Assembly: GCA_020723485.1 (NCBI GenBank)
Contig: DYIU01000005.1
Span: 62,001 to 126,000 of the forward strand
DNA length: 64,000 nucleotides
Source of the DNA: Acidimicrobium ferrooxidans
Lineage (GTDB): Bacteria > Actinomycetota > Geothermincolia > Fen-727 > Anoxymicrobiaceae
Reading direction: 5' to 3'
The notes beneath the pieces were generated by a model, which was given only the letters and a program-made list of their open reading frames with translations, did not search any database and was not told the DNA's origin. Below are positions 14,980 to 37,749 of this stretch, in pieces. How positions within the stretch are numbered: the first letter of the stretch is position 1; the number at the start of each line of letters is the position of its first letter. The position numbers and the translations under genes are program-made.

Positions 14980-16209
14980 TCAATCAAGGCCGGGCGCGTC
15001 GTGTTCATCATCCGAGTCGGTGTCCGCCCCGCCGGAAACGGACTCGAGCACTATCTCGACAAGGTCCGCCACCGGCAGTCCCTCTCCCACGCCCAGCGCG
15101 TCCGAGAGGTTCATCTCGCAGAACGGGCAGCATGTCACGAGCGTGGACGCCCCCGTCTCGACAGCCTCCGCCTGCCGGAGGGACGCCACCTCTACGGCGC
15201 TGTCGGTATGCCCGGTGCGCAAGCCACCGCCTCCGCCGCAGCAACGGGCGTTCGACCCGGTCCGGGACATCTCGACCAGCTCGAGCCCGGGGATAGACTC
15301 CAGGACCTTCCTGGGCTGGGAGGTCACCCCCCCGTGCCGCGCGAGGTGACAGGGATCGTGGTAGGTAACGGAGCGCTCCACCGGCCCGGGTTCGAGCCTG
15401 CCCTCTTCGATGAGGTCCGCCAGCACCTCCGACACGTGCAGCACCTCGGGATGGAACGGCGCGACCCTGGGATACTCGTGCTTCATGATGCCGTAGCACC
15501 CCGCGCACGCCGTGATTATCCTTTCGACCCCGAGCGCGTTCAGCTTCTCGATGTTCCTTCCAGCCTGCGCCAGGAACGTCTCCCGGACCCCGACCCTCAT
15601 CGCGGTGCTGCCGCAGCATATCTCCTCGCGCCCCATGATGCCGAAGTCGACTTCCGCCGCCGTGAGCACGCGGGCGGTGGCCGCGGCCACCTTCTGCATG
15701 TTGGGAAGGTAAGCGGCTGTGCACCCCGGGTAGTAGAGCGCTTCGGCGTCCTGCTTCGGGAGGACCTTGAGTCTCGGCTGTATCTTCTTCGCCCAGCGGT
15801 CCCGCTGCGCCCTGGGCATCTGCCACGGGTTGTCGTAGTTCTCCACGCTCTTCACAAGCTCCATCTGGGACGGGAGGGGGCCTTCGCCCCTGGACACCAT
15901 GACGTCTCTGAGCAGGTTCACGAGCTCGGTCAGCCTGATTCCCATGGGGCAGCGTACCGAGCACGAGTAGCACGCGGAGCAGTAGTAGAGGACCTCCGGG
16001 CGCAGCACCTCTTCAGCCTGTCCCGTCAGGGTCAGCCTGACCAGTTCCCTGGGCCCCATGTCCGAATAGCGGGCGACGGGACAGGAGGCGGTGCAGGTGC
16101 CGCACTGCAGGCATGAACGTACTTTTTCGCCCACGTCGCTCCCCGCAACGAGGTCATCGAAGAACTCGCCGGTAAACACCTCCAGCGCTTCCTTGCGTAC
16201 CCCTGTCAT
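14980..16209 (-). CDS. HdrC/HdrB-like (HdrD-type) iron-sulfur protein
   Basis: Fusion-type heterodisulfide-reductase-like protein of 409 aa. The N-terminus has two 4Fe-4S motifs (CLQCGTCTASCP and CSACYSCSVRCP). Two CCG domains follow: GCTAAY with ICCGST and CAGCYG, then HDPCHLAR with CCGGGGG and CCPFCEMNL. In Hdr these bind noncubane 4Fe-4S clusters at the disulfide site; in class II benzoyl-CoA reductase a similar subunit (BamD) relays electrons. The ATG overlaps the stop of the ABC ATPase gene (ATGA), so it belongs to the same operon as the AOR-like and HdrA proteins. A GlcF/LutA-type role is the alternative. Confidence 0.85.
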   Translation of the reverse strand: MTGVRKEALEVFTGEFFDDLVAGSDVGEKVRSCLQCGTCTASCPVARYSDMGPRELVRLTLTGQAEEVLRPEVLYYCSACYSCSVRCPMGIRLTELVNLLRDVMVSRGEGPLPSQMELVKSVENYDNPWQMPRAQRDRWAKKIQPRLKVLPKQDAEALYYPGCTAAYLPNMQKVAAATARVLTAAEVDFGIMGREEICCGSTAMRVGVRETFLAQAGRNIEKLNALGVERIITACAGCYGIMKHEYPRVAPFHPEVLHVSEVLADLIEEGRLEPGPVERSVTYHDPCHLARHGGVTSQPRKVLESIPGLELVEMSRTGSNARCCGGGGGLRTGHTDSAVEVASLRQAEAVETGASTLVTCCPFCEMNLSDALGVGEGLPVADLVEIVLESVSGGADTDSDDEHDAPGLD

Positions 16210-16994
16210 ATCTTCCTCTCCATGGCCATCTCCTTCACCAGGTATTCGAGTATCCTGGCGCGAAGCCCCGTGAACTCGGGGTCGGTGCGCGTCCTCGGGT
16301 ATCCCAGCGTGTTCTCGAGCCGTTCGACTATGCGCGCCGGGCGTCGCGAGAGCCCGATTATGTCCTGCCCCAGGAACACGGCCTCGTCAACAGAGTGTGT
16401 TACGAAGACTATGGTCGTCCCCGTCCTCATCCACAGGTCGACCAGGAACTCCTGCATCCCGTTCCGGGTCTGGGCGTCGAGGGACGCGAACGGCTCGTCC
16501 ATCAGGAGCACCGAGGGCTCAACCGCCAGCGTCCGGGCTATCGCCACGCGCTGTTTCATCCCCCCCGACAGTTCCCTCGGGTAAAGGTCCTCGCAGCCGG
16601 ACAGCCCGACTGTCCCCAGGTATACCTCGGCCCTCTCGCGGGCTTCCCTGGCCGGAATTCCCTTGAGCGCCAGGCCGAACGTGACGTTCCTTAGCACGGT
16701 CCTCCACGGGAAGAGCGCGTACTCCTGGAAGACCATCCCCCTGTCGGGCCCGGGGCCCCGCACAGGCTTCCCCCCGAGAAATACCTCACCGGAGGTCGGT
16801 GCCTCGAGGCCGCCCATCACCCTCAGGAGCGTCGTCTTCCCGCAGCCGGAAGGGCCCACTATGCAGGTCAGGCGCCCGGGCCTGACTTCGATGTCGAGCC
16901 CGGACAGCACCTCGAGCGTCCGCCCGGTCTTCTTCTCTTTGAAGCTCTTCGAGAGCGACCGGAGCTCGAGCGCCGGCCGGCCGTTGCCGTTCAT
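16206..16994 (-). CDS. ABC transporter ATPase, NitT/TauT family
   Basis: ATP-binding subunit (262 aa) of an importer of the nitrate/sulfonate/taurine (SsuB/TauB) class. Walker A is GPSGCGKTT, the Q-loop is VFQEYALFPW, the signature is LSGGM, Walker B is LLMDEPFASLD and the H-loop is VTHSVDEA. The ATG at 16994 is chosen because it overlaps the permease stop (ATGA) and gives the family N-terminus; the frame is open much further upstream only as antisense-like sequence. Unusually, this importer lies inside an operon for redox iron-sulfur proteins, between a QueG-like and an HdrCB-like gene. Confidence 0.9.
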   Translation of the reverse strand: MNGNGRPALELRSLSKSFKEKKTGRTLEVLSGLDIEVRPGRLTCIVGPSGCGKTTLLRVMGGLEAPTSGEVFLGGKPVRGPGPDRGMVFQEYALFPWRTVLRNVTFGLALKGIPAREARERAEVYLGTVGLSGCEDLYPRELSGGMKQRVAIARTLAVEPSVLLMDEPFASLDAQTRNGMQEFLVDLWMRTGTTIVFVTHSVDEAVFLGQDIIGLSRRPARIVERLENTLGYPRTRTDPEFTGLRARILEYLVKEMAMERKI

Positions 16995-17743
16995 CTCCAC
17001 CTGAGGACCCTTTTCTCCGCGGCCTTTATCAGCCTGTCCATCAGGAAGCCGATCACCCCTATCACGACCATCCCCGCGACCACGTAGTCGAAGCGGGCGA
17101 CGTCCCGCGCCGTCAGTATCATGTAACCCAGGCCGTACCCGCTCTTCACCCCAACCATCTCGGCGGCTATCACGGTCATCCAGCCGATACCCACCCCTAT
17201 CCGCATCCCGGTTATGATCGAAGGCAGTGCGGCGGGCGCGAGTACCCGCGCAAGGACGGTGGCCTCGCCGGCACCTAGCGTCCGCGCGGCCTCCACGAGG
17301 TACGGGTCGACCGATTTCACCCCGGAGACGGTGTTCAGCACTATCGGGAAGAAGGCCCCCAGGAAGATCAGGAACGCGGAGGAGAACATGCCCAGGCCGA
17401 ACCAGGTCAGCGCGAGCGGCAGCCACGCGAGCGGCGGCACCGGGCGCACGACCTCCACCAGTGGGTCCAGGGCGTTGTCGAACGCCGGCGACCATCCCAT
17501 CAGGATGCCAAGCGGCACGGCGAAGAGAGTGGCCATGCCGAAGCCGAGCAGGACCCGCCCCAGGCTTGCCGCTATGTGGCCCGGAAGCCTGTAGCCCGGC
17601 GGGAAACCCGTGACGGTGAGCTGGTAGATCCCCTGGGCGACCTCGACCGGCGTCGGCGTGCTCTTTCCCAGCAGGCCCAGGCCGGCCAGTAGCTGCCAGA
17701 GCGCGAGTACTATGAGAGGCGAGAGGACCTTCCACTTCTTCAC
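16991..17743 (-). CDS. ABC transporter permease, NitT/TauT family
   Basis: Inner-membrane permease (250 aa) of the SsuC/TauC type, with about six transmembrane helices. The cytoplasmic coupling loop is EAARTLGAGEATVLARVLAPAALPSI, the EAA-like motif that contacts the ATPase. It starts with GTG overlapping the binding-protein stop (GTGA) and ends overlapping the ATPase start (ATGA). The full transporter set is intact, which implies a dedicated imported substrate for this operon. Confidence 0.9.
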   Translation of the reverse strand: MKKWKVLSPLIVLALWQLLAGLGLLGKSTPTPVEVAQGIYQLTVTGFPPGYRLPGHIAASLGRVLLGFGMATLFAVPLGILMGWSPAFDNALDPLVEVVRPVPPLAWLPLALTWFGLGMFSSAFLIFLGAFFPIVLNTVSGVKSVDPYLVEAARTLGAGEATVLARVLAPAALPSIITGMRIGVGIGWMTVIAAEMVGVKSGYGLGYMILTARDVARFDYVVAGMVVIGVIGFLMDRLIKAAEKRVLRWR

Positions 17744-18735
17744 GAACCGCCCCCGGGCAGGAAGGCCGTGTCCACCAGCGCCCGCGTGAACGCGCCGGGG
17801 CTGTCGACCTTTATCACGCCGTTGTCCTTCAGGAACTCCACGTACCGCTCGATGCCCTCGGGCCTGGGCCTGAACGAGAACTCGATGTTCTTCATCGCGG
17901 CGCGCGCCACGTCATTCGGCTGTCCCGTGAACAGGTGGGCCATGTCGGCGGCCTCGAGCTCGTTCTCGTTTATGTACTCGGTAGCCCTCACGTGGGCCGC
18001 CACGACCCTCCTGACGGTGTCCGGGTTCTCCCTCAGGAATCCGGCGTCGGCGACCAGCATGCAGCAGGGATGATGCGGCCATATCTCGTCAGAGGTGACG
18101 AGCACGCGCCCCGCCTTCTGCGCGGCGACCATCGACGGGTACGGTTCCCACACCACCGCCGCGTCCACCTGCCCGGCGGAGAGCGCCGGTATCATCTCGG
18201 GCGGTTTTACCACGATTATGCTGACGTCTTTCTCGCTCACGTCCGCCTTGTCGAGCGCCAGGCGCAGGAGGAAATCCTGAACGGTGGAGTAACCGGGGAC
18301 CGCGATGGTGCGGCCTTTCAGAGACTCCACGTCAGGCGCTTCCAGCCCGTTGCGGACCACTATTGCCGAGCCTTCCATGTTGGCCTGGGCGACGATACGC
18401 ACGTCCGCCATGTCCTGGCCGGCGAACGTCACCACCGGCGCGGTGCCGGCGTAGCCCATGTCGAGGTCTCCGGCGGAGAACGCGCTCATCTCCTCCGGGC
18501 CGGCGCTGAACGCGCCGCCCTCCCTCACGTCAAGGCCCTCGTCCGCGAAGAAACCCTTCTCTCTCGCGATGTAATAGGCAACCTGGTGCAGGTCGTTGCG
18601 GAGTATCCCCATGCGCACCACGCGGGTGCCCTGGGGCTCCCCTCCGCATCCGGCGAGCGGAAGCGACAGCGCCATGGCGCAGAAGGCCGCCAGGGCGACG
18701 GCAATGACTGCCGGGAGAGCGCGGCTCGGTCTCAT
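17740..18735 (-). CDS. ABC transporter substrate-binding lipoprotein (NMT1/SsuA type)
   Basis: Substrate-binding protein of 331 aa. A signal peptide ends in the lipobox LAGC (Cys30), giving a membrane-tethered lipoprotein. The mature part begins VVRMGILRNDLHQVAYYIAREKGFF, the opening of NMT1/THI5-like and SsuA proteins that bind nitrate, sulfonates, pyrimidine precursors or aromatic acids. ATG 18735 has GGAGGTGG seven to eight bases upstream and lies 4 bases after the QueG-like gene stop. It does not resemble tungstate-binding TupA or WtpA, so a direct role in feeding the W/Mo enzyme its metal is not supported. The ligand is unknown. Confidence 0.9.
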   Translation of the reverse strand: MRPSRALPAVIAVALAAFCAMALSLPLAGCGGEPQGTRVVRMGILRNDLHQVAYYIAREKGFFADEGLDVREGGAFSAGPEEMSAFSAGDLDMGYAGTAPVVTFAGQDMADVRIVAQANMEGSAIVVRNGLEAPDVESLKGRTIAVPGYSTVQDFLLRLALDKADVSEKDVSIIVVKPPEMIPALSAGQVDAAVVWEPYPSMVAAQKAGRVLVTSDEIWPHHPCCMLVADAGFLRENPDTVRRVVAAHVRATEYINENELEAADMAHLFTGQPNDVARAAMKNIEFSFRPRPEGIERYVEFLKDNGVIKVDSPGAFTRALVDTAFLPGGGS

Positions 18736-18739
18736 CTGT

Positions 18740-19519
18740 CTACCCACCTCCCAACGGGCAGTTCTTGATGCAGTTGAAGCAGAAGTACTGGAACCCCAGC
18801 GAGCCGGCGTGGTAGAGCTTCCAGTAACCATCGTCCGCGAGCATCGCCTGGCGCTGGGCCTCATCCGCGGCGGCCCACTTCGACCAGAACCTTATGTTCC
18901 CGCCTATTCCGTACGGCTGGCACGCCTTCAGGCACGCGAGAACGTCGGTCCGCCCCTCGACCTCGAGCGCCCCCGAGGGGCACGTCTCCACGCACTCCAT
19001 GCAGTCGTCGCACAGCCGCTCTTCCAGGGGAGGGTCGCCGGGCAGTTCGAGGTCGGTCAGCACCTCGGTGAATATGACCCTGCTCCCGAACCGGGGGTGC
19101 AGCACCAGGTTGTTACGACCGAAGCTCCCGAGCCCCGCGGCCACCGCCGAGTGCCTGGCGGAGACATCCCCGATCGCTCCCTGGGTCTCCCGGCTCATCA
19201 GCAGGGGGTAGGACACCGGCACTGTCATGGCCTTCGCGCCGAACTCCCGCCCCAGGAATCGAGCGAGCTTGTAGTTGCAGGAGCGGGAAAACTCCATCAG
19301 GTCGAGGCGGCCGTTCATGGCTATCATCATGTTGTCGCTCTCACAGCTGGGCAGCTCGGCGTAAGCCAGCACGACCAGCGTCCTGACGCCGGGGAAAACG
19401 CTTTCCAGCGACGGCGAGCGCGGGCTGTCGTACGAAGATGCGGCCGCGAACCCTACGTCGTCGACCCCCAGGCCCTCCGCGAACTCCTTCACGATCTCTT
19501 TCCTGGCTTCTGAACTCAT
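18740..19519 (-). CDS. QueG-like 4Fe-4S protein
   Basis: Protein of 259 aa related to epoxyqueuosine reductase QueG and to the iron-sulfur half of reductive dehalogenases. It has the QueG-like stretch RHSAVAAGLGSFGRNNLVLHP followed by EVLTDLEL. A CDDCMECVETCPSGALE 4Fe-4S motif and a C-terminal CFNCIKNCPLGG complete a two-cluster arrangement. QueG proteins bind a corrinoid; whether this one does cannot be read from sequence. Position in the operon (ATGA overlap with hdrA) argues for a redox role in this pathway rather than tRNA modification. ATG 19519 gives the natural start; the upstream open frame is antisense-like. Confidence 0.75.
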   Translation of the reverse strand: MSSEARKEIVKEFAEGLGVDDVGFAAASSYDSPRSPSLESVFPGVRTLVVLAYAELPSCESDNMMIAMNGRLDLMEFSRSCNYKLARFLGREFGAKAMTVPVSYPLLMSRETQGAIGDVSARHSAVAAGLGSFGRNNLVLHPRFGSRVIFTEVLTDLELPGDPPLEERLCDDCMECVETCPSGALEVEGRTDVLACLKACQPYGIGGNIRFWSKWAAADEAQRQAMLADDGYWKLYHAGSLGFQYFCFNCIKNCPLGGG

Positions 19520-21465
19520 AACATCAACCCCTCGATGTTGGCGAGTATCTGCTGGTCGTCGCCCAGCTCCAGTGACGCAGCCCCCCCGAGGCATGCGGCC
19601 ACACACAGCCCGCAGCCTTTGCATACCGCCTCGTTCACAACCGCGGCACCTTCCTCTGAGAGCTCGACGGCGGTGTAAGGGCAGGCCAGCACGCATTGCC
19701 CGCAGCCGCGGCACAGCTCCGCGTCGACGGTGGACACCCCCGCCTCTACCTGCACGGTGCCCCTGTCAAGGAGCGAAAGCGCCTCGGTGGAGGCAGCACC
19801 GGCCTGGGCGACGGTATCAGGTATGTCCTTGGGACCCTGGCAGCAGCCGGCGAGGAATATCCCGTCAACGAGCGAGGAGACGGGGCGGAGTTTCGGGTGC
19901 GCCTCAGTGAAGAAACCTTCCGGCCCCAGCTGGAGACCGAGCACCCGCGCGAGCTCCGCTGCGCCGCGGGCCGGGACCAGGCCGGCGGCCAGCACCACCA
20001 TGTCCACCGGGAGCTCCACCTGCCGCCCGAGGAGGGTGTCCTCCGCGAACACCGTGAGCCTGCCGCCCAGTCTCGCGACGTCGGCGCACTTGCCCCGCAC
20101 GAAGAATATCCCCTCGTCGCGGACCCTCCGGTAGAACTCCTGGTAGCCCTTCCCGAAAGCGTTCACGTCGATATAGAACTCGTATACTTTCGCTCCGGTC
20201 TTCTCGCGCGCCAGGTGGGCCTGCTTCATGGAGTACATGCAGCACACGCGCGAGCAATATTCGTTCGCGTTCTCGTCCCGCGAGCCGATGCAGTGCAGGA
20301 AAGCTATGGCTCCGGGCTCGCTCCCGTCCGCCAGGACCACCTTCCCACCGGTCGGTCCGGACGCGGACAGCATCCTCTCGAACTGAAGGGCGTCGAGGAC
20401 CTCTTCGTAGCGCCCGTAACCGAACTGCGGCATCAGTCCCGAGTCGAACACGTCAAACCCCGTCGCAACGATCACCGCCCCGACTTCGAGCTCCCTTGTC
20501 GTAGACCTCATCTCGAGGTCTACGGCGCCGACGCCGCACGCCTCGACGCAGGGCGCCTTGCACTTGCCCTTCGTGAACATAAGGCAGTGCTCGCGGTCCA
20601 CGGCGGCGGCGAGGGGCACCGCCTGCGGGAACGGCATGTACATAGCCCCCCGCGACGACAGCCCCGCGTCGAACTCGTCCGGAATGCGGCCGGCGAGGAC
20701 GCAGGCCTCGGCGCAGTCCCCGCATCCGGTGCAGCTGTCGACGTCGACCCCCCTCGGGTTGGTCCGCACCTCAGCCTTGAAGTTGCCGGCGAAGCCCTCC
20801 AGCGATGTCACCTCGCTGGTCGTCATGATCTCGATGTTCGGGTACCTGGCCGCCTCGACCATCTTCGGGGTGAGGATGCAGGCCGAGCAGTCCAGGGTCG
20901 GGAAGGTCTTGTCGAGCTGGGCCATGTGCCCGCCGATGCTCGGGCCTCGCTCGACCAGGTAGACCTGTTTTCCCGCGGCGGCCAGGCCGAGCGCCGCCTG
21001 TATCCCCGCTATCCCGCCCCCGATGACCAGCACCGCCTGCGTGACCGGGTACGTGCGGCTCGAGAGCTCCCGGTTGAAGGCGACCCTGTACACCGCGCCG
21101 CCGATGAGCGCCGAAGCTTTCGCGGTGGCCTCGCCGGGATCGTCGTGCACCCAGGAGCACTGCTCGCGGATGTTGGCCATCTCGAGCATGTAAGGATTGA
21201 GTCCCGCGTCCGCGAGCGTCTCGCGAAAGGTCGGCTCGTGCAACCTCGGAGAGCAAGCGGCCACCACGACCCGGTCCAGCCCAAGCTCCTCAATGTCGGC
21301 GCGGATGATAGCCTGGCCCGGGTCAGAGCACATGTAAGGGTAGTCGCGCGCGACCGCCACGCCCGGAAGCCCGGCCGCTCTCCGGGCCGCCAGGGAACAG
21401 TCGACCACTCCCGCGATGTTGGTCCCGCAGTGGCAGACGTATACGCCCGTCCTTCCCGCCATCAT
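19516..21465 (-). CDS. HdrA-like FAD and iron-sulfur subunit
   Basis: HdrA-family electron-bifurcating-type subunit (649 aa). The N-terminus has CHCGTNIAGVVD, and the FAD-binding Rossmann motif VIGGGIAGIQAALGLA is near residue 147. It has SIGGHMAQLDKTFPTLDCSACILTPKM, an internal ferredoxin motif CTGCGDCAEAC, HCIGSRD..NEYCSRVCCMYSMKQA, and two C-terminal 4Fe-4S motifs (CRGCGQCVLACP and CKGCGLCVAAC). In methanogens and in BamE of class II benzoyl-CoA reductase such subunits bifurcate or distribute electrons between ferredoxin and other carriers. It overlaps the genes on both sides by 4 bases. No MvhD or hydrogenase subunit is in the window, so the electron partner is probably the ferredoxin and AOR-like protein upstream. 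Confidence 0.92.
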   Translation of the reverse strand: MMAGRTGVYVCHCGTNIAGVVDCSLAARRAAGLPGVAVARDYPYMCSDPGQAIIRADIEELGLDRVVVAACSPRLHEPTFRETLADAGLNPYMLEMANIREQCSWVHDDPGEATAKASALIGGAVYRVAFNRELSSRTYPVTQAVLVIGGGIAGIQAALGLAAAGKQVYLVERGPSIGGHMAQLDKTFPTLDCSACILTPKMVEAARYPNIEIMTTSEVTSLEGFAGNFKAEVRTNPRGVDVDSCTGCGDCAEACVLAGRIPDEFDAGLSSRGAMYMPFPQAVPLAAAVDREHCLMFTKGKCKAPCVEACGVGAVDLEMRSTTRELEVGAVIVATGFDVFDSGLMPQFGYGRYEEVLDALQFERMLSASGPTGGKVVLADGSEPGAIAFLHCIGSRDENANEYCSRVCCMYSMKQAHLAREKTGAKVYEFYIDVNAFGKGYQEFYRRVRDEGIFFVRGKCADVARLGGRLTVFAEDTLLGRQVELPVDMVVLAAGLVPARGAAELARVLGLQLGPEGFFTEAHPKLRPVSSLVDGIFLAGCCQGPKDIPDTVAQAGAASTEALSLLDRGTVQVEAGVSTVDAELCRGCGQCVLACPYTAVELSEEGAAVVNEAVCKGCGLCVAACLGGAASLELGDDQQILANIEGLML

Positions 21466-22811
21466 GACTCCATCAGTATGGGTGCCTCTTCCCTCTTCAG
21501 ATGTTCTTCCGAACGCATGCGGAAATACAGCGAAAGGAACCGTGCGGTGAGCTCCTTGAGCGTGGTCAGCAGCGACTCTGCCTCTGCCAGTGAGTCTTCG
21601 CCTGACTCGACCTTTATTCTAAGCGTTTTGACCATCCCGGTCACCTCGGAGTATCCGAGCGCCAGCCCGCGCAGCCCCTCCATGTCCGTGACCAGGCCCG
21701 GGTTCCCCTCGATGTACGGCAGCCGCCGCCACGCGCTCTCGAGGAACACCCTCACCTTCTCCGGCTCCCAGACCTTTACCCCGATCTTCCAGGTGACGGG
21801 CATCTTCTCGAGGCCGAAAGCCACTATTCGTGCGTTCGAGACCTCCCGCTTGATGTCGAGGAGCGCCTCCGCGACGTCGTCCTCCACGGCCGGACCTCCC
21901 CGGCGATGCTCCCACGTACGAAGTGGACGCCCCGTCTTCACCCCTGAAAGGTCGCCCGGGCCGTGGGTGAGCGAGCGCCAGTGCCCCTGCATGAGTTCCA
22001 GTGCGAGCGCGTTGGCGCGCGGGAAGAGGGGGTGCTCGAGGTGGGGACCGCTCGCAAGCACCGAACCGCGCCCCAACCGGCTGAAGATGACGGCCGCCCG
22101 GCCCGCGAGGAGCCGGCCGGCCTCGCTCTCGGGCCACAGGAACGCCGCCCTCGGGGTCAGACCCGAATAGACCGCCCGGACCTCATCCGGATTGCCCGCC
22201 TCCATGACCGGCCCCCCGAAAAGGACCGTCCTCAGTCCGGCTCCGGGCTCGAAACAAGGAAACCGCTTCGCGGCGGCGGTGGGGGCCATCAACACCTCTC
22301 CGTAGACCGGGTGGAACACCCAGTCTCCACCGTAGGGCGCGAGGTACTTATGTGCGAGACAGAGCGGCTCCGGAGGCTCCGGCATCACGTTCAGCATCCT
22401 GCCCTCAACGAGGGAGAACGGTGTGAACGGCGGCAGGTCGACCCCGGACAGCACCAGGTACGCCCCCGCGCAGGAGCCGACGTAGAGGCCGCCGGCCTCC
22501 ACGAAGGAACCGAGCGCGCTCGCCCCGGCCGGTCCCAGGCCCTCCGCCATGGCGTAGGTATCTCCCCCGCCGACCAGCAGCATGTCCAGGCCCTCGAGGC
22601 CCCCCGACAGGACCGCCGATTCGTCGATGAAACCCACCCTGCAGATGCCGGCATGCTCCAGCATGTCGGCGAACCAAAGCCACGAATGTGATGCACCGGC
22701 GCCGATGAATATAGCGGCGCTCGGAGCCGTAGGCGATGAGAATCCCTCGCGGTATCGTTCGAAGATGGGATCTGCGGCCGCCTTCGCGAGGCGGCCCGTC
22801 GACCTGCCCAT
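21462..22811 (-). CDS. BPL_N-type glutamine-amidotransferase-like protein with unknown C-terminal half
   Basis: Protein of 449 aa. Residues 1-230 form a class I glutamine-amidotransferase-like (biotin-protein-ligase N-terminal, BPL_N) fold: LLVGGGDTYAMAEGLG followed by GGLYVGSCAGAYLVLSG, with the nucleophile-position Cys in SCAG. Residues 240-449 hold GSVLASGPHLEHPLFPRANALAL, then a helical tail I do not recognise, rich in E/K and ending REEAPILMES. Its stop overlaps the hdrA start (ATGA), and the AOR-like gene lies 24 bases upstream. A role in cofactor or substrate processing for the AOR/Hdr complex is only inference. Confidence 0.65.
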   Translation of the reverse strand: MGRSTGRLAKAAADPIFERYREGFSSPTAPSAAIFIGAGASHSWLWFADMLEHAGICRVGFIDESAVLSGGLEGLDMLLVGGGDTYAMAEGLGPAGASALGSFVEAGGLYVGSCAGAYLVLSGVDLPPFTPFSLVEGRMLNVMPEPPEPLCLAHKYLAPYGGDWVFHPVYGEVLMAPTAAAKRFPCFEPGAGLRTVLFGGPVMEAGNPDEVRAVYSGLTPRAAFLWPESEAGRLLAGRAAVIFSRLGRGSVLASGPHLEHPLFPRANALALELMQGHWRSLTHGPGDLSGVKTGRPLRTWEHRRGGPAVEDDVAEALLDIKREVSNARIVAFGLEKMPVTWKIGVKVWEPEKVRVFLESAWRRLPYIEGNPGLVTDMEGLRGLALGYSEVTGMVKTLRIKVESGEDSLAEAESLLTTLKELTARFLSLYFRMRSEEHLKREEAPILMES

Positions 22812-22835: not shown

Positions 22836-24104
22836 TCAGGTGAAAAGGCTCTCGATGCCGGACGCGTCCAGCTCGACGCCCGCCGCCGGCCCGCAGAGCC
22901 CGAGCAGCGAATCAACGTCGACCCCGCCGGCCAGGAGCAGAGCGGGACAGACGCCCAGGACATAACCGGCCCTGTTTGCCGCCAGCCACTTCTCGGAGGC
23001 CGCCAGGGGCGGGACCCAGGGCCCGAATGCGTCATATGAGACCTGCTCTCCCGCGGGCCACCCGGCCTCCATCGTTCCCTCGAGGCCTCCTACCGCGGAA
23101 GCTATCTCGCCTGGGTCCGACAGCGGCGAGGCGGACAGCTCCCGTGCGCCTCGCACCAGGTCGATTCCCTCACGGGCCATCGACTCCATCGCCCTCCCGG
23201 CGGCTTCGGCTCCCCAGCCTCCCTGCCAGAGCCAGAACGCTGCGGCGGCGGAGATGACCAGCATGCCGGGCTCCTCAACCCCGTCGGGGGACATGACATC
23301 GGGCGCCTCGTTGTACTTGACGAAGGTCGAGCACGCGGTCGGACAGGCGAAGCAGGAGCGGTACCGGTGCACCAGAGGCTCGAGCCAGGCGTCCACGTCG
23401 TCCCCTCCAAGCCCCGAGCACACCGCCTTGAACCCCCGCTCGGCGGGGGCCGCGCTCATGAGCTCAAGAGCCTTCTCGTAGAACTCCCCGGGCTCTTCGG
23501 CGTCGAGCATCCCCAGCCCGCGCAGCGCCACCGCCTTCAAGTTCTTGGCGCCCATCACGGACCCCAGCGCGGAGCTGTCTCCCGAGCCCCAGTAGTTGAT
23601 GGAGTACGCGGCGAGGTCCCGGGTGGCCTCCCCTGCCGGACCGATGGATATGACCTGTATCAGGCTCTCGCCCATTTCCTTGCGTATCGCGTCGGTCGTC
23701 TGCCACGTGTCCATCCCCTTCAGGCCGGAAGCGTCGAGCACGTCCGCCACCCCGTCGTGCAGCCACAGGTAGACCGGCTTCGCCGAGGAACCTCTCACTA
23801 CCACGGCCGAGAACCCGGAGAGCTTCATCTCAGCTCCCGCGTACATGCTCAGTGGAGACACCGCCGCCTCGCCGGTCAGCGGGCTCTTCCCCAGTACGAA
23901 TCCCAGGCAGGCGCCGGGGACCGGGGTGCCCGTGAAGAGACCCGAACCGAACACCAGCGGGTCGTCTCCGGAATATTTCTCGTAGAGCGCCAGGCCCGCC
24001 GCCAGCCCGGGGCCGGCCTCGTCGGCCTCGTCGAATGGGACCTGCTCCGTCTTCCCCGTCGAGAGGTCGACCAGCAGCACGTCACCGTAGTACATCGCGT
24101 CCAT
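22836..24104 (-). CDS. Short aldehyde:ferredoxin oxidoreductase (AOR/BamB)-like protein
   Basis: Tungsten/molybdenum-pterin AOR-family protein, only 422 aa against about 600-650 in characterised members. Domain 1 is clear: YYGDVLLVDLSTGK, GTPVPGACLGFVLGKSPLTGE, and GSVMGAKNLKAVAL near residue 180. The 4Fe-4S motif CFACPTAC (Cys251, 254, 258) is intact, and Cys386 in GVCPALL may be the fourth ligand. The RGG-type glycine loop before the GSVMG block is changed to GDSSALG, and roughly 180 residues of the C-terminal pterin domains are missing. It is preceded by a ferredoxin gene and followed by hdrA and an HdrCB-like gene. That set resembles BamBCDE of class II benzoyl-CoA reductase or AOR-Hdr complexes. 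Whether it still binds W-pterin is open. Confidence 0.8.
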   Translation of the reverse strand: MDAMYYGDVLLVDLSTGKTEQVPFDEADEAGPGLAAGLALYEKYSGDDPLVFGSGLFTGTPVPGACLGFVLGKSPLTGEAAVSPLSMYAGAEMKLSGFSAVVVRGSSAKPVYLWLHDGVADVLDASGLKGMDTWQTTDAIRKEMGESLIQVISIGPAGEATRDLAAYSINYWGSGDSSALGSVMGAKNLKAVALRGLGMLDAEEPGEFYEKALELMSAAPAERGFKAVCSGLGGDDVDAWLEPLVHRYRSCFACPTACSTFVKYNEAPDVMSPDGVEEPGMLVISAAAAFWLWQGGWGAEAAGRAMESMAREGIDLVRGARELSASPLSDPGEIASAVGGLEGTMEAGWPAGEQVSYDAFGPWVPPLAASEKWLAANRAGYVLGVCPALLLAGGVDVDSLLGLCGPAAGVELDASGIESLFT

Positions 24105-24113: not shown

Positions 24114-24473
24114 TCACTCGAGATAAAGGGCGTTCTGCGGGCAGATAGCCACGCATTGAGGCTCGAGGCCCGCGCTCTCGCACAGGTCGCAGGCCTCCCG
24201 GATCAGGATAGGTTTCGCGGAAGCTCCGCCGCCGGAGCCCGCCCCGCGCTGCTGGAGCTCTCCGAGCTTCACGGCTTCCGGGCCCTCGGGCTTGCCGAGG
24301 AAGAGGTCTTCCTCGGTCTTGACGATGACCCCCATGTAGTCCTTTTTCTCCTCGGCACGGTAGAGCATGATGCTCGAGGAGATGAGTGAGAACGCCTCGT
24401 CCCAGTGGTACCCGCACGCGAGCTCGCACAGCGCGCACCCGGTGCATTCCAGGGGTTTGACCTTGACCCTCAA
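24114..24473 (-). CDS. 4Fe-4S ferredoxin-like electron-transfer protein (AOR-associated)
   Basis: Small ferredoxin-like protein of 119 aa. The N-terminal cluster motif is CTGCALCELACG. After an insertion of about 60 residues containing a glycine-rich linker, the C-terminal part has CDLCESAG..CVAICPQNALYLE. This layout matches the ferredoxin subunits encoded next to AOR-family enzymes (BamC and AOR small subunits). The TTG at 24473 is chosen because GGGAGG lies 6 bases before it; a longer TTG start at 24500 is possible. It is the first gene of the operon running to 14980 and ends 10 bases before the AOR-like gene. Confidence 0.82.
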   Translation of the reverse strand: MRVKVKPLECTGCALCELACGYHWDEAFSLISSSIMLYRAEEKKDYMGVIVKTEEDLFLGKPEGPEAVKLGELQQRGAGSGGGASAKPILIREACDLCESAGLEPQCVAICPQNALYLE

Positions 24474-24522
24474 GCGTGCCTCCCTTCTCGCTTCCGACAA
24501 GTAGCAATTCTATCAAAAGAGA

Positions 24523-24606: not shown

Positions 24607-26142
24607 CTACGTCGAGGCCAACGGGAGGTTCAGCCTCCCGGGGGCCATTATGTTGCCGGGGTCGATATCGCGCTTCAGCTCACCCAGGAGGTCGGCGTAC
24701 GTGCCCAGGCGCGGTGTCTGCAGCGTGCCGAAGCTGAAGCCCCCGTAACCGCCGTAGGGGCGGTCGAACAGCCCGCCGTCGTCCAGTACCATGTTGATGG
24801 CGTCATACCCGAAGGCGAGGCCCCGCTTCACGCTCTCCGAGTCGTCGAAGCTGATGAAGAAATCGAGCTCCAGCATGCAGCTCCTCCCGAACTCGAGTGG
24901 CTGGGTATAGACCGTGACCTCGGTAGGCGGGAAGGCCTCCTTCCAGAGGCGCCAGTCGGTGTCGCGGAAATGCTTGTCGGCAAGGCGCTGGTACTTCTTG
25001 TGCAGGTCCGAGACCCTGTCCAGGCACGAATTGAACCAGACCACCTGGAACGAGCCGAAGAAACGCGTCACCCTCATGGTGCACTGGAGGACCTTGCACT
25101 CGTAGGTTATGTCCCCGATCATCTCCGACAGCATCTCCACAATGCTGTCGTCCATGAGCTCGTACCCCCCGCGCTCGACGAGACGGAGCAGTTGCTCTTC
25201 CTTGAGCCGCGCCTCCTCCTCGTCCTCGCCGCCCAGTATCACGATGGCGTTGTTGCGAGGGATGTACTCCACAATCGATTCGGCCACCTCGTCGTCCTCG
25301 GTTGCGAACCAGGAGAAGTAAGCGTCCTGGAGGTGGGAGCACTCGTTCACGAAATCCTCGCGGGTGACTTCGTAGAAGAACTCCGATACCGAGTTCAGGT
25401 CCTCGGTTTCGAACGTCACGACCTTGAGGACCTCCACGGCCGGCCACTCGTAGACCTGGGTGGTCATCTCGGTCATGACACCGAATATTCCCATCGAGGA
25501 GTGGAACAGCCCGCTCATGTCGGGCCCCGGCCCCTCGACGCAGACCTTCTCGGCGCCGGGCAGCGCCCCCGAGCCGGTCTTCAGTATCTCGCCGTCAGGC
25601 ATCACGAACGTCATGGAGACTATGTGGTCCGGCCCCACGCCGTACTTGTTGGCAGGCATGCCGATGCCTTTGTCCATGTGGTTCGTCGCCACCCCGGCGG
25701 TGTGCGGACCCGAGGGGTTCACGGCATACAGCCCCTTCTTCCTGAGCATGTTCTGCGCCACCCCGAACCGGACGGACGGCTGGATGGTGATTGTCATGTT
25801 CTGCTCGTCGATATCGAGTATCCTGTCCATCCGGCGCAGGTCCAGCAGTATGCCTCCCCGCTGGGGTATGCAGCCCCCGGCGCAGTTTATCGCCGTCGAC
25901 GCGGGTGTCACCGCCATGCCGAACCGCCCCGCCAGGCGCACGATCTCCTGGACCTGTTCGGTCGTCTCCGGCAGGACCACGATATGAGGCTTCTTGGCGG
26001 TCTCGAAGCTGTTATCCTTCGAGTAGCCGATGAGGATAGCGGGGTCGTTCGAGACCCACTCTTCCCCTACCACCTCCTGCAGGAGCCCTACCACCTCTTC
26101 GACCGTCTCTTCCACCGTAGGGTCGTACGGGCGTACCGCCAT
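24607..26142 (-). CDS. FAD-linked oxidase, GlcD-like (module 1, FAD-B)
   Basis: PCMH-type FAD protein of 511 aa, related to glycolate/D-lactate oxidase GlcD and vanillyl-alcohol-oxidase flavoproteins. The FAD domain has PHIVVLPETTEQVQEIV, a pyrophosphate loop TPASTAINCAGGCIPQRGG and DLRRMDRIL. The C-terminal cap ends IDPGNIMAPGRL, the usual FAD-oxidase_C closing motif. It presumably oxidises a hydroxy acid, hydroxyacyl or similar substrate and passes electrons to the HdrD-like protein encoded upstream. ATG 26142 follows that gene's stop by one base (TGATATG). Its paralogue at 33613-35148 has exactly the same length. Substrate unknown. Confidence 0.82.
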   Translation of the reverse strand: MAVRPYDPTVEETVEEVVGLLQEVVGEEWVSNDPAILIGYSKDNSFETAKKPHIVVLPETTEQVQEIVRLAGRFGMAVTPASTAINCAGGCIPQRGGILLDLRRMDRILDIDEQNMTITIQPSVRFGVAQNMLRKKGLYAVNPSGPHTAGVATNHMDKGIGMPANKYGVGPDHIVSMTFVMPDGEILKTGSGALPGAEKVCVEGPGPDMSGLFHSSMGIFGVMTEMTTQVYEWPAVEVLKVVTFETEDLNSVSEFFYEVTREDFVNECSHLQDAYFSWFATEDDEVAESIVEYIPRNNAIVILGGEDEEEARLKEEQLLRLVERGGYELMDDSIVEMLSEMIGDITYECKVLQCTMRVTRFFGSFQVVWFNSCLDRVSDLHKKYQRLADKHFRDTDWRLWKEAFPPTEVTVYTQPLEFGRSCMLELDFFISFDDSESVKRGLAFGYDAINMVLDDGGLFDRPYGGYGGFSFGTLQTPRLGTYADLLGELKRDIDPGNIMAPGRLNLPLAST

Positions 26143-26143
26143 A

Positions 26144-27364
26144 TCACTCACCCCCCAGGCCGACAGACTCGGCAAGCAGCTCTATCACGTTCCTCACTTC
26201 CATGCCGTCGGAGGCCCCGCGCAGGTTCTGCTCGCAGAACGGGCACGCGGTCACCAGCGCCTCCGCGCCGTGCTCGGAGGCCTCGTAGAGCCTCTCCCGG
26301 GCGGCCCACTCGGCAAACTCGGGGAAAGCGGTGCGGACCCCGGCGCCCGCTCCGCAGCACCAGGAGTTGTCTCTCGAGCGCTGCATCTCGACCAGCTCGA
26401 AACCGGGCAGGGCCCGAAGTATATCCCGCGGCGGGTCGTACACGCCGCAGTAGCGCCCCAGGTGGCAAGGGTCGTGGTAGGCGGCTTTCATGGCCACCTC
26501 CGCCTCCGGCTCGAGCGCGCCGTCCGCCACCAGGTCCGCCAGCATCTCCACCATGTGGACCACCTTATAAGACGGCTTTCGAATCTCCGGGTACTCCTCG
26601 CCCATCACCGAGTAGCACCCGGCGCAGCCGGTCACCACCGTCTTGACGCCGAGGCTCTCGAGCATGTCCATGTTCTCGTGCGCCATGCGAAGGTAGGTCT
26701 CACGGTCCCCGATGCGCAGGACTGTCGAGCCGCAGCACAGCTCTTTGTCCCCGAGGATGCCGAAGTCGACACCGGCCTTCTGCATGAGGGCCGCGGCCCG
26801 CTGCAGGGTGCCGGTGAGGTTCGCGTCCAGCGAGTATGTGCACCCGGCGTACAGGAGCACCTCGGGGCTCTGCTTGTCCGCGTCCTTTACGCCCATCTTC
26901 CTGGCCCACGCCGCCCGCTTCTGCTTCGGGGCCTGCCACGGGTTCCCGTAGTTCTCGAGCGACTTGAGCAGCGGCTCGTGCTCGGGGAGAGGGGCCGCGC
27001 CGTCGCGTACGGCCCGCTCCCGCAGGGCGGTGATGGTCTTCAGGGGGTCCTTTCCGGAGTACGGCGCGCATACCGACATGCAGCCCCCGCACTGAGTGCA
27101 GGTGTAGAGCGCGTGGAGGAGCTTCTCGGTGTAGTCGAGCTGTCCGGTTATGAGCCCGCGGGCGATGTCCTGCTTCCCGGAGGCGTAGTACGCCTCGAAG
27201 CGCCACTTCTTGCCGGGCGGGCACATATCCACAAACCTGGGGTCCTCGTACTCGCCCTGGTAGACGTGGATGTACTTGCACAGCGAGCACTTGCTGCAGC
27301 GGTATGCCCATTTCTGCACCTGGGCCAGCGGGTCGTAAGGGTCGCGGTTGAACTCTGACATCAC
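26144..27364 (-). CDS. HdrD/GlcF-like iron-sulfur protein (module 1)
   Basis: Iron-sulfur protein of 406 aa with two N-terminal 4Fe-4S motifs. The first is unusual: CSKCSLCK and its fourth Cys (MCPPG) are separated by about 20 residues. The second is CTQCGGCMSVCAP. Two CCG domains follow (GCTYSLD, LCCGST, CAGCYSVM; then HDPCHLGRYCG, WCCGAGAG, CPFCEQNL). It is the likely electron acceptor of the two flanking FAD proteins, analogous to GlcF in glycolate oxidase. Its start overlaps the stop of the upstream FAD gene by 4 bases and its stop is 1 base from the next start, so the trio is translationally coupled. Confidence 0.87.
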   Translation of the reverse strand: MMSEFNRDPYDPLAQVQKWAYRCSKCSLCKYIHVYQGEYEDPRFVDMCPPGKKWRFEAYYASGKQDIARGLITGQLDYTEKLLHALYTCTQCGGCMSVCAPYSGKDPLKTITALRERAVRDGAAPLPEHEPLLKSLENYGNPWQAPKQKRAAWARKMGVKDADKQSPEVLLYAGCTYSLDANLTGTLQRAAALMQKAGVDFGILGDKELCCGSTVLRIGDRETYLRMAHENMDMLESLGVKTVVTGCAGCYSVMGEEYPEIRKPSYKVVHMVEMLADLVADGALEPEAEVAMKAAYHDPCHLGRYCGVYDPPRDILRALPGFELVEMQRSRDNSWCCGAGAGVRTAFPEFAEWAARERLYEASEHGAEALVTACPFCEQNLRGASDGMEVRNVIELLAESVGLGGE

Positions 27365-28662
27365 TCATCACCCCCCTCGATGACCTGGTCGGGGTTCATG
27401 ACGTTGTTGGGGTCGATGCGCCGCTTGGCGATGCGGATCAGCTTCTCGTAGTTGCCGGTGCGCCTGTAGAGAGCGTGTGCGAGCGAGCCTGTCGGGTTGG
27501 AGAAGAACGCGCCGGAGTCGAGGAGCTTCTCCAGCGTGTCCATCCCGGCGCGCTCCGGGAGTTCGTAATGGTTGTACACGGACGCTCCGCGCTTGACGGG
27601 GACCACCATCCGCGGGACCCCTTCCGGCAGCATGCCGTCGAAGGATGGGACCTTCTCGAACAGGGTGTAGAAACCGACAGTGCCCTCCGGGGCGTTCCAG
27701 GGCGCGCGAAGCGCCTCGGAGAAAGCCGGCGCCAGGCCGGAGAGCTCATCCGGGGAACCGAGCGCCTCGTCGACGCGCCTCCGGTGGTAGGCGACGAGGT
27801 CGGACGAGCCCTCGAGCGCCGCCACCGTCACCCACGGGGAAGGGACGCTTTCCCCGGTGACCGCCTCCGCCTTCGCCCTGTTGAGCGCGAGGCACTCGAC
27901 CGCCATCTCCCTCCTCGAAATGAACTGCGCCGCTTTCAGGGCCGGCCCCATCTCCTGGAAGCCGAGCACCGTTATCGCGCGCTCTTCAAAACGCGGGTAA
28001 AGGTATACGTAGCCCTTGAACGGAAGGCCGAACATGTTGTGAGAACCCAGCATCATCTTCGAGATGTTCGGACCCCCGTCCTCACGCCAGTTGATGCAGT
28101 GCTCCTCCGCCCCCGGCAGGGCGTGCGAGCCGCTCTTGTAAACGCGGCCGTCCGCCAGCACCATGTGAAGGTTGGATATCTGCTTGTTGGTGTATCTCGA
28201 GGCCATCAAAAGGATGTCCTTCTCCTGGTATGCCGCCAGTGCGCTCTGGGCCCGTGCCGCCGCGGGGAGCGCCATGCGGAGGCCCAGCGCCTCCACTTCG
28301 GGCAGCAGCTTCTCCCACGTGACCCCCGGCTCGACCACCGCGAAGAGCCTCTTCGAATCGAGCGACCAGATCCTGTCCATCATCGAGAGGTCTACCACTA
28401 CGCCCTCACGCCGCGGCTCCAGCCCGAACGGCATCGGGGTGTACAGCGCAAGCCCAGTGCCGTTGGCGATACCGATGAGGCCCTGTATCTCCTCGACGCT
28501 GCGTGGCTTGACCAGCGCCAGCAGCATCCCGGCATCGCCGCCGGCGGCGACGTAGCCGGCTATCTCGTCCGGGTCCGACGAGAACCGCTCATCCTCGCTG
28601 TAGATGAGCCGCCGGACCTCCGCCATCACAAGCGAACTGTCCCTGACTTTCACCGCTTCCAA
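27361..28662 (-). CDS. FAD-linked oxidase-like protein with altered FAD loop (module 1, FAD-A)
   Basis: PCMH/GlcE-like protein of 433 aa. FAD-domain landmarks are LVKPRSVEEIQGLI, DLSMMDRIWSLD, VVEPGVTWEKLLPEVEALG and a C-terminal IDPNNVMNPDQVI. The glycine-rich pyrophosphate loop normally following the first motif is replaced by YTPMPFGLEPRREG, so FAD binding may be altered or lost. Its paralogue in module 2 has the same replacement. It is encoded directly upstream of the HdrD-like gene with a 4-base overlap and downstream of the SCP2 gene. It may be a structural or substrate-binding partner of the second FAD protein. Confidence 0.78.
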   Translation of the reverse strand: MEAVKVRDSSLVMAEVRRLIYSEDERFSSDPDEIAGYVAAGGDAGMLLALVKPRSVEEIQGLIGIANGTGLALYTPMPFGLEPRREGVVVDLSMMDRIWSLDSKRLFAVVEPGVTWEKLLPEVEALGLRMALPAAARAQSALAAYQEKDILLMASRYTNKQISNLHMVLADGRVYKSGSHALPGAEEHCINWREDGGPNISKMMLGSHNMFGLPFKGYVYLYPRFEERAITVLGFQEMGPALKAAQFISRREMAVECLALNRAKAEAVTGESVPSPWVTVAALEGSSDLVAYHRRRVDEALGSPDELSGLAPAFSEALRAPWNAPEGTVGFYTLFEKVPSFDGMLPEGVPRMVVPVKRGASVYNHYELPERAGMDTLEKLLDSGAFFSNPTGSLAHALYRRTGNYEKLIRIAKRRIDPNNVMNPDQVIEGGDE

Positions 28663-30240: not shown

Positions 30241-30987
30241 TCAGATGGTGTAACCGCCGTCCACCGTGAAGAGCTGCCCGGTTATGTAGTCGCCGCTCAT
30301 GCAGAGGAACGCGACCAGCTCGGCGACCTCCTCGGGCCTTCCGTAGCGCCGCATCGGTATGGTCTTCAGGATCTTCGCCCGCGTCTCGGCCCCGGTGTCG
30401 GCAGCCATGTCGGTCTCTATGAAGCCGGGGACCACCGCGTTGACCGTTATCCCGTAACGCGCCAGCTCGCGGGACAGTGACTTGACCATGCCAACGAGGG
30501 CGGCCTTGGTGGCCCCGTATACGCTGTCGCCGGGGTAACCGGTGACCCCGATGACGGAGGAAACGTTGATTATGCGGCCCCACCCCTCGTCTTTCATGAG
30601 GTCCGCTGCCGGTCCGGCCAGGTAGAACGCGCTCTTGAGGTTGGTCGATATCATGCGGTCCAGGAAGTCATAGCGGACGTCCTCTATCCGCGAGCCCTGC
30701 CATATCCCGGCGTTGTTCACCAGGATGTCAACCTTTCCGAGGGCCTCGAGCGTGGCGCCGAAGAGCTCCAGCGCGCCCTCCGGGTCGCCGACGTCCGCCT
30801 GCAGCGCTACGCATCTGCCGCCGATGGCTTCCAGGTCCTGCATCACCTGCCCCGCCGCGTCAGCTCGCTCCCTGTAGTTGACGGCGACGTCCGCCCCGTT
30901 GCGCGCCAGCTCCAGGGCGATCGCTCTTCCTATCCCCCGCGAGGAGCCGGTCACCAGTGCGACCTTCCCTTCGAGCGTTTGCATCAT
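30241..30987 (-). CDS. Short-chain dehydrogenase/reductase (FabG-like)
   Basis: Classical SDR of 248 aa, annotated by family as 3-oxoacyl-ACP/CoA reductase. The cofactor motif is TGSSRGIG, the structural motif is NNAG, the catalytic Ser lies in NVSSVIG, the Tyr-Lys in YGATKAAL, and PGFIETDM follows. NADPH preference is suggested by the Arg after TGSS. It is the last gene of the long minus-strand operon that begins near 39829 with TetR 2 and contains mutase set 2. It could therefore act as a hydroxyacyl-CoA dehydrogenase there rather than in fatty acid synthesis. Confidence 0.88.
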   Translation of the reverse strand: MMQTLEGKVALVTGSSRGIGRAIALELARNGADVAVNYRERADAAGQVMQDLEAIGGRCVALQADVGDPEGALELFGATLEALGKVDILVNNAGIWQGSRIEDVRYDFLDRMISTNLKSAFYLAGPAADLMKDEGWGRIINVSSVIGVTGYPGDSVYGATKAALVGMVKSLSRELARYGITVNAVVPGFIETDMAADTGAETRAKILKTIPMRRYGRPEEVAELVAFLCMSGDYITGQLFTVDGGYTI

Positions 30988-31020: not shown

Positions 31021-32685
31021 CTACGCGGATTCGACCAGGTGTGATGATTCCTTGAACGTGCCGTAGTGCGCGCGGTAGACGTCCCAGACCTCCTCCAGGG
31101 TGGCGTAGGCCTCCACGGCGGCCATGGTCGGCTCGAACAGGTTCTCGTCGCGCTCGGCTGCTTCCCGCAGCTGCTCCAGGCTCTCGAGCGTGCGGTCGCC
31201 GTCCCGCGTCTCCTTGAGGCGGCCTATGCGCTCTTTCTGGGCGTCTTCCATCTCCTGGGATATCCTGAGCAGGTCTATCGGAGGCTCGACCTCCTCAACA
31301 TACTTGTTGACGCCCACTATCACCTGGCGGCCGGCCTCCACCTCCTTCTGGTATCGCCACGCCGCGCGGGCCACCTCGCGCTGGATGTAACCGTTCTCGA
31401 CGGCCTCGAGCATGCCGCCCTGCTCGTCTATCTTGCGTATGTACTCGACGGCCTCCTCCTCCATCTCGTTCGTCAGCTTCTCGACGAAATACGAACCCCC
31501 CATGGGGTCGACGGTGTTGGCCACACCCGATTCCTCTGCTATCACCTGCTGGGTCCGCACAGCTATCTTGAGGGACTCCTCGGTGGGCAGGGCCAGGGCC
31601 TCGTCGAAGGCGTCCGTGTGGAGGCTCTGCGTGCCGCCCAGGACCGCCGCCAGCGCCTGGATGGTGGCGCGCACTATGTTGTTGAGCGGCTGCTGGGCCG
31701 TGAGCGAGCATCCCGCGGTCTGGGTATGGAACCTCACCATCATGGAGCGCGGGTCCCGCGCGCCGAAGCGCTCCTTCATTATTCTCGCCCAGAGCCTTCG
31801 GCCGGCCCTGTACTTGGCTATTTCCTCGAAGAAGTCGTTGTGGGCGTTCCACATGAAGGTGAGCCTCGGGCCGAAGCTGTCTATTTCGAGGCCGCGGCCC
31901 AGAAATGAGTTCACGAAGTCTACGCCCTCGCTGAGGGTGAAAGCGAGCTCCTGGGCGGCGGTGCAGCCTTTCTCCCTTATCTGGTAACCGACGATGCTTA
32001 TCGGGTACCACCTGGGCACGTTTCGCGTGCAGAACTCGACCACGTCCGTGCAGAGCTTCAGCTCCGCGCGCCTTGGAAGGACCCTCACGTTAGCCGCCAC
32101 GTCCCGGCAGAACGTATCGTTCTGGAAGGTTCCCTGCAGCTTCGAGAAGTCCGCTCCCTGGCGCCTGGCCAGTGCGAAGTACATGGACGGTATCGGCGGG
32201 TGGGCTATGACCAGGGACGTCGAGACGTCCGCGAGAGGGATGTCCGCGAACAGGCGCTCCATGTCCTCGAGCGAGTCGCAAGGGACGCCGTCCCTGCCGA
32301 CCTCGCCGTGGGCAAGCGGGTGGTCGCTGTTGAGCCCGTGGATCGTGGGCATGTCGTATGCGACGTTCAAGCCCGGGGCGCCGTGCTCCATCAGGTACTT
32401 GAGGCGCCTGTTGGACTCGTCGGGATCGCCGAAACCCATGAACTGCCTGATGGTCCACAGCCTCCCGCGGTACATGGTGGAGTGCACCCCGCGGGTGAAC
32501 GGGTACTCGCCGGGAAAGCCCAGGTCCCGCTCGTAATCAAAGCCGGGCAGGTCCCACGGGCCGTACAGGCGCTCGATCTCGCGCCCCGACACCGTCTCGA
32601 ACGGCTCCTTGCGCTCGGGCGCGGCGTCCAGCGCCGGGCCGAGCGTCTCCCGCTCCCAGCGCTCCTTCTCTATGCGGTCCATCAT
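31021..32685 (-). CDS. Adenosylcobalamin-dependent acyl-CoA mutase large subunit, divergent active site (set 2)
   Basis: Methylmalonyl-CoA-mutase-family large subunit of 554 aa. Global blocks are intact (YDMPTIHG, GTFQNDTFC, FGGTQ-like [14 protein letters not shown], and ESGVANTVDPMGGSYFVE). Three residues that define substrate handling differ. Tyr89 of the P. shermanii enzyme is Phe82 (TIRQFMGF), Arg207 is Ala198 (DVAANVR), and the conserved His244 is Gln235 (VGYQIREKG). This matches neither methylmalonyl-, isobutyryl- nor 2-hydroxyisobutyryl-CoA mutase signatures. A B12 subunit and MeaB are encoded in the same operon, arguing that it is a working mutase. An enoyl-CoA hydratase and FAD-HdrD-FAD module are its neighbours. 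The substrate is unknown. Confidence 0.87.
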   Translation of the reverse strand: MMDRIEKERWERETLGPALDAAPERKEPFETVSGREIERLYGPWDLPGFDYERDLGFPGEYPFTRGVHSTMYRGRLWTIRQFMGFGDPDESNRRLKYLMEHGAPGLNVAYDMPTIHGLNSDHPLAHGEVGRDGVPCDSLEDMERLFADIPLADVSTSLVIAHPPIPSMYFALARRQGADFSKLQGTFQNDTFCRDVAANVRVLPRRAELKLCTDVVEFCTRNVPRWYPISIVGYQIREKGCTAAQELAFTLSEGVDFVNSFLGRGLEIDSFGPRLTFMWNAHNDFFEEIAKYRAGRRLWARIMKERFGARDPRSMMVRFHTQTAGCSLTAQQPLNNIVRATIQALAAVLGGTQSLHTDAFDEALALPTEESLKIAVRTQQVIAEESGVANTVDPMGGSYFVEKLTNEMEEEAVEYIRKIDEQGGMLEAVENGYIQREVARAAWRYQKEVEAGRQVIVGVNKYVEEVEPPIDLLRISQEMEDAQKERIGRLKETRDGDRTLESLEQLREAAERDENLFEPTMAAVEAYATLEEVWDVYRAHYGTFKESSHLVESA

Positions 32686-32707
32686 GTTCCTCCGGTGGTC
32701 TTTAAGT

Positions 32708-32787
32708 CCGGGGTCAGGTCTGTATCATTATGTTGGTACATCTCAGACTTACAGGCTGGTTTGTCTGGTGAACAGACCTGACCCCGG
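32708..32787. repeat. Inverted repeat, CCGGGGTCAGGTCTGT family
   Basis: Perfect 16-base arms (32708-32723 and 32772-32787) flank 48 bases between the enoyl-CoA hydratase and mutase genes of one operon. The outer TTTAAGTCCGGGG resembles the short palindrome at 11342-11370. Placed inside an operon, it could cause partial termination or mRNA processing. Confidence 0.8.
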
Positions 32788-32802
32788 ATCTAAGGACCGG
32801 TT

Positions 32803-33585: not shown

Positions 33586-33612
33586 CCCTTGTCGTGGTCG
33601 TGAATACTGGGG

Positions 33613-35148: not shown

Positions 35149-35159
35149 CTGACGCCCCC

Positions 35160-36362: not shown

Positions 36363-36364
36363 CT

Positions 36365-37696: not shown

Positions 37697-37749
37697 CCAT
37701 CCTCCTCTCCGCCTGCCGGTCAGATGCGCAGTGCGCCCTGTCCGGGTCT

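Follow-up and report, generated by a model that had tools for sequence, protein, structure and literature searches.

The gene at positions 22,836 to 24,104 (minus strand) of the window, the 64,000-nucleotide stretch of DNA analyzed here, encodes a compact, 422-residue protein that has the AOR fold without a tungstopterin site. We term this protein sAOR, and its assignment draws on the open reading frame, Pfam, homologs, and a structural model. We propose, with a probability of about 0.6, that sAOR represents an undescribed, pterin-free family of AOR-fold proteins that binds the ferredoxin encoded directly upstream, serving as a dock and, in members that retain the cluster cysteines, also relaying electrons through a single cluster. 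Overall, the protein appears to be an old enzyme body put to new use, as a non-catalytic component of a redox system that has not been described before.

The start codon of sAOR, an ATG, is closely preceded by the purine-rich stretch GAGGAGA. In keeping with the original prediction of an AOR-family protein ≈180 residues shorter than known members and with a clear domain 1, sAOR has 183 residues fewer than the 605-residue AOR of Pyrococcus furiosus (PfAOR), and Pfam recognizes AFOR_N across residues 8 to 196 (147.7 bits; E = 4.8e-43; cut-off 29.8). The AFOR_C match is not accepted (11.7 bits; cut-off 27), and sequence matches in the PDB are to AOR, FOR, WOR5, WOR83, and BamB, essentially through domain 1. 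The missing portion lies mainly within the protein. In profile alignments, residues 1 to 320 match AOR domain 1 and the beginning of domain 2 (E = 2.9e-55). The final 50 residues match the stretch of AOR that surrounds C494 (E = 3.2e-5), scoring 34.7, and 30 column shuffles reached no more than 12.2. The alignment to AOR domains 2 and 3 thus reveals an internal deletion of ≈130 residues (roughly PfAOR 350–485) together with the loss of the last ≈75. The expectation that the C-terminal pterin domain would be largely missing agrees with the Pfam result, but sAOR is not a simple C-terminal truncation, since the tail carrying C386 is retained.

The AlphaFold2 model of sAOR, built from 25 sequences, is compact, with a pLDDT of 93.9 and a pTM of 0.94. 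All confident Foldseek matches in the PDB are to AOR, FOR, WOR, and BamB structures, with TM scores normalized to the query of 0.63 to 0.80. The proposed comparison with PfAOR (1aor, 0.79) and BamB (4z3w, 0.65) gives an AOR-type fold, as do the matches to AorB (8c0z, 0.80) and A. mobile WOR1L (9mqx, 0.77). The CxxCxxxC motif that was read from the sequence is present as C251-FA-C254-PTA-C258 (23,331–23,354, minus strand, with the codons checked); its cysteines correspond by mapping to PfAOR C288, C291, and C295, three ligands of the [4Fe–4S] cluster. A fourth probable ligand, C386 in the C-terminal tail (22,947–22,949, minus strand; motif YVLGVCP), was overlooked by that prediction and aligns with PfAOR C494 in the C-terminal profile alignment. 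Counterparts of the four PfAOR cysteines are each retained in 22 to 24 of the 25 short members, and the complete set is found in 22.

Other genera of the same family encode orthologs of similar length that are free of internal stops (62–68% identity), as do genomes further out in the order and class (38–42%). A single-sequence scan of species genomes gave no matches, and an alignment-based scan recovered relatives in Clostridia (Syntrophomonadaceae), Desulfobacterota including Desulfosarcina cetonica, other proteobacterial MAGs, Theionarchaea, and Thermoplasmata. Across other Actinomycetota and these Clostridia, Desulfobacterota, and archaeal groups, the orthologs span ≈360–500 residues. The 25 short proteins and 15 full-length AORs lie on the two sides of a branch with 100/99 support. 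Full-length matches from the alignment scan were excluded from the short set as ordinary AORs. Also rejected was an AOR-like ORF of ≈310 residues from the match start in Desulforhopalus singaporensis (L110, 3266–4195), which has a normal AGRTG loop and is probably a broken full-length AOR. One genome (G005) carries an apparently split sAOR copy with Ns in the assembly at the break. The D. cetonica draft contains several frame-split genes (L056, 9633–9947 and 11,356–13,364; L143, 2716–3511 and 5353–6763), which encode a ferredoxin, an AMP-binding enzyme, an ABC permease, and a CCG protein and are probably assembly errors.

The likely small-subunit partner of sAOR is a ferredoxin (Fd; 24,114–24,500, minus strand) with two 4-Cys motifs, assigned from Pfam, its neighborhood, and a check of its cysteines; relatives begin at the codon corresponding to 24,467. 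An Fd gene lies directly upstream of sAOR in every locus whose upstream region is covered. By analogy to AorB–AorA and BamB–BamC, sAOR would bind this two-cluster ferredoxin. In AorAB, 11.9 Å separate the cluster of AorB from the first cluster of AorA (PMC10413684), so a pterin-free sAOR–Fd pair would put one extra cluster beside the ferredoxin. We infer that where all four cysteines are kept the cluster is assembled, and that sAOR may then relay electrons between Fd and a partner in the same system. Candidates for that partner are the glutaminase-like protein encoded downstream (BPLN) and the nearby CCG, HdrA, and FAD electron-transfer proteins.

Three desulfobacterial members (L054, L055, and L056) bear directly on how general such a relay could be. 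They form one supported clade (100/96) and have lost three or four of the cluster cysteines, the C386 counterpart disappearing jointly with those of C254 and C258, and they keep W172, D176, H246, and R247. The L055 ferredoxin, the only complete ferredoxin ORF among these loci, retains all eight cysteines. The electron-relay role therefore cannot be universal, and docking may be the core, more general role. Carried to its limit, this argument would make sAOR purely a scaffold or allosteric dock, with the AOR fold kept only to place Fd beside BPLN or another enzyme and the cluster serving a structural purpose. Both the joint loss of cysteines in a clade that otherwise keeps the family signature and the intact L055 ferredoxin are consistent with such a role. 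Against it, all four ligands persist in 22 of the 25 members, from bacteria and archaea alike, at sequence identities of about 30–40%, and we consider a pure scaffold possible but rather unlikely.

Changes in sAOR also affect the cofactor site. As noted originally, the glycine loop reads GDSSALG (residues 175–181; 23,562–23,582, minus strand; placed by sequence and mapping), and its D176 is invariant in all 25 short members. PfAOR R76, T243, E313, D338, H448, K450, and D489 are substituted or missing in every or almost every one of them, and N93 is likewise replaced or deleted. Among the bis-pterin and Mg contacts, R76 is replaced by Leu, Ala, or Val and D338 by Ala and other residues, and K450 and D489 have no counterpart. 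None of the second-shell residues Thr243, Glu313, Tyr427, and His448 is kept at its mapped position. The pterin contacts named for AorB are R75, G94, R181, D361, and D504 (PMC10413684). Judging from this residue mapping, the sAOR family has most likely lost the W/Mo bis-pterin site, and the possibility that every pterin-binding residue persists in a compact form is excluded.

Eight residues are conserved within the family and absent from full-length AORs: P84, Q150, W172, D176, H246, F261, G280, and P387. Five of these fall at or near former cofactor positions, with P84 at the N93 site, W172 and D176 in the glycine loop, G280 at the E311 site, and P387 beside the C494 counterpart. These positions could mean that a different ligand or substrate now occupies the old pterin cavity and that sAOR is newly catalytic. 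However, few of these five residues are polar and ≈130 residues of domains 2 and 3 are gone, which makes a repurposed pocket improbable.

The original prediction had offered two options, a minimal W/Mo enzyme or an AOR-derived electron-transfer or structural subunit. Full-length AORs are encoded in all 18 sAOR genomes tested (3–20 AFOR_C matches each; six full-length AORs in the genome studied here), so the tungsten cofactor is probably available in the cell, and D343 is retained in 15 of the 25 short members. MoaA has a Pfam match in 12 of the 18 genomes, the archaeal ones not being matched by that model. Despite the full-length AORs and the retained D343, which favor a minimal enzyme, the bis-pterin and substrate residues (R76, T243, E313, Y427, H448, K450, D338, and D489) have been exchanged or lost throughout the family, several of the replacements are conserved, and AFOR_C remains under its cut-off. 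The first option is thus unsupported and very improbable. We favor the second, given the fold, the four ligands in 22 of 25 members, and the upstream ferredoxin. Finally, the shortness of sAOR is all that speaks for a frameshift, an assembly fragment, or half of a split AOR, and we reject this explanation as having next to no probability, because similar-length orthologs without stops occur in many bacterial and archaeal genera, the C-terminal tail matches AOR in the vicinity of C494, the model is compact and confident, and the genome holds no orphan AFOR_C gene, its six AFOR_C matches all lying in full-length ORFs of 625–773 residues.

The genes surrounding sAOR in the window, all on the minus strand, include several for putative electron-transfer proteins. 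Upstream of Fd lie FAD1, a GlcD-like FAD-linked oxidase (24,607–26,175), CCG, an Fe–S protein with two CCG domains that resembles GlcF, TfrB, and HdrB (26,144–27,364), and FAD2, a second FAD-linked oxidase (27,361–28,662), all assigned from domains and neighborhood, followed by a short-chain dehydrogenase (SDR; 30,241–30,987; neighborhood). Downstream of sAOR are BPLN (21,462–22,811) and, overlapping it by 4 nucleotides, a 649-residue HdrA-like flavin/Fe–S protein (19,516–21,465; ORF, domains, and neighborhood). Next come a QueG/reductive-dehalogenase-like Fe–S protein, matched mainly over its Fe–S region (18,740–19,714; domains and neighborhood), and an ABC transporter, for which the ORFs and neighborhood identify a substrate-binding protein kept beside BPLN and HdrA in relatives (17,740–18,864) and a cassette-conserved permease (16,991–17,743). 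The transporter ATPase, of the SaoA/taurine/nitrate type, occupies 16,206–16,970, the distal part of an ORF spanning 16,206–17,735. Close relatives share the order FAD2-CCG-FAD1, SDR, Fd, sAOR, BPLN, HdrA, (QueG-like), ABC transporter, and in most of them the SDR gene is directly upstream of Fd. A second FAD2-CCG-FAD1-like set (31,021–38,715, minus strand) lies upstream of SDR and adjoins genes for an acyl-CoA mutase large subunit, an enoyl-CoA hydratase, and a MeaB GTPase.

Even in Theionarchaea, the immediate neighbors of sAOR are Fd on the upstream side and BPLN on the downstream side. In Thermoplasmata (L066, 8225–11,182; also L062 and L067), pyrB-pyrI (aspartate carbamoyltransferase) is followed directly by Fd-sAOR, and BPLN is encoded at a separate locus close to a CCG protein; in two of the three, a gene for a putative cytochrome b-like membrane protein, assigned by similarity to an L055 protein, is also near BPLN. 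None of the annotated proteins flanking sAOR is WorABC, the NADH-binding bifurcation module of class IV WOR and the Bam complex.

BPLN combines a class I glutaminase-like (BPL_N) domain with a C-terminal helical domain, as identified by Pfam, alignment, and fold search. Its fold matches Pdx2 and HisH in Foldseek (Pdx2 TM 0.73, normalized to the target), and Cys114, His257, and Glu259, arranged as in the class I glutaminase triad, are invariant in 15 sequences. Within the phylum, the 10 genomes (of 396) that encode BPLN are precisely those that encode sAOR, an overlap whose chance probability would be 4e-20 for independent genomes; these genomes are not independent. BPLN is also found in all eight distant sAOR genomes. 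So strict an association with a glutaminase-like protein identifies a system that has not been described.

An AIR-synthase-like protein (AIRS; 44,371–45,345, minus strand) that falls between the sll0787 (NitF) and methanogenesis-marker-2 families is also encoded in the window. All 19 sAOR genomes tested encode an AIRS protein of this kind, as compared with 13 of 386 phylum genomes without sAOR, and in about half of the 19 the gene is on the same contig within roughly 25 kb of sAOR. Fifteen of the 19 also encode a NitD-like radical SAM protein. Relatives of the Nit1C genes NitD (radical SAM), NitE (GNAT), and NitF (AIRS) are all found beside sAOR in some genomes. In contrast to Nit1C, however, the sAOR genomes lack a Nit1-type nitrilase (TIGR04048; 0 of 18) and their AIRS proteins score under the NitF cut-off; with the nitrilase absent, we rejected Nit1C as the pathway of sAOR. 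In an actinobacterial MAG (L053, 8378–9646), an arginase-family gene lies directly upstream of the Fd-sAOR pair, with NitD-, NitE-, and NitF-like genes and a TPP enzyme downstream. In the window, the AIRS gene and a radical SAM/SPASM gene (47,983–49,236) flank a 697-residue ORF without a Pfam or NCBIfam match (45,702–47,795, minus strand); because a long ORF also exists on the opposite strand, the 697-residue ORF may be mechanical rather than a gene.

A broader and doubtful idea is that sAOR, Fd, BPLN, and AIRS work together as a single, new ATP-dependent amidotransfer system with redox coupling. In the manner of PurQ and PurL, BPLN would free ammonia and AIRS would activate an amide-type substrate, and the sAOR-docked Fd would supply electrons. 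If so, sAOR would be the first case of an AOR descendant taken over for nitrogen chemistry.

According to a recent review, all known members of the AOR family carry a W/Mo bis-pterin (PMC12096430). The sAOR branch, conserved in bacteria and archaea and devoid of the cofactor site, breaks this rule. We found no description of a pterin-free AOR branch in the literature examined. A published survey required both AOR domains (PMC13328260), so the sAOR family would be missed by it; the family possibly overlaps with WOR clades 24, 32, 37, 39, and 59 (Schut et al. 2021), the five that InterPro dropped. Automatic annotation may also label sAORs as aldehyde ferredoxin oxidoreductases, in which case tungsten use in anaerobe genomes would be overstated.

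Among known systems, the AOR/WOR large subunits (WorL; 1aor, 8c0z, and 9mqx) share with sAOR domain 1, the four [4Fe–4S] cysteines, the fold (TM 0.77–0.80), and an adjoining gene for a ferredoxin-type small subunit. Unlike these enzymes, sAOR has no bis-pterin contacts or catalytic residues, is ≈180 residues shorter, and has no recognized AFOR_C, and it fails the two-domain family definition (PMC13328260). The small subunit of class II WOR (WorLS) holds four [4Fe–4S] clusters, whereas Fd has only two 4-Cys motifs. The class II benzoyl-CoA reductase BamBC likewise pairs an AOR-fold subunit with an Fe–S small subunit in a neighborhood with HdrA-like and CCG proteins. BamB, however, keeps the tungstopterin and its full length and is the lower structural match (TM 0.65), and BamC has three clusters (PMC13328260) rather than two. 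BPLN resembles the class I glutaminases Pdx2 and HisH in its fold and invariant Cys, His, and Glu, but differs in its additional helical domain and in having no known synthase partner. Overall, sAOR is an AOR by descent and fold but not a WOR enzyme by published definitions, whether these rest on the W/Mo pterin or on both domains. A similar fate befell the Mo-enzyme fold in NuoG of complex I.
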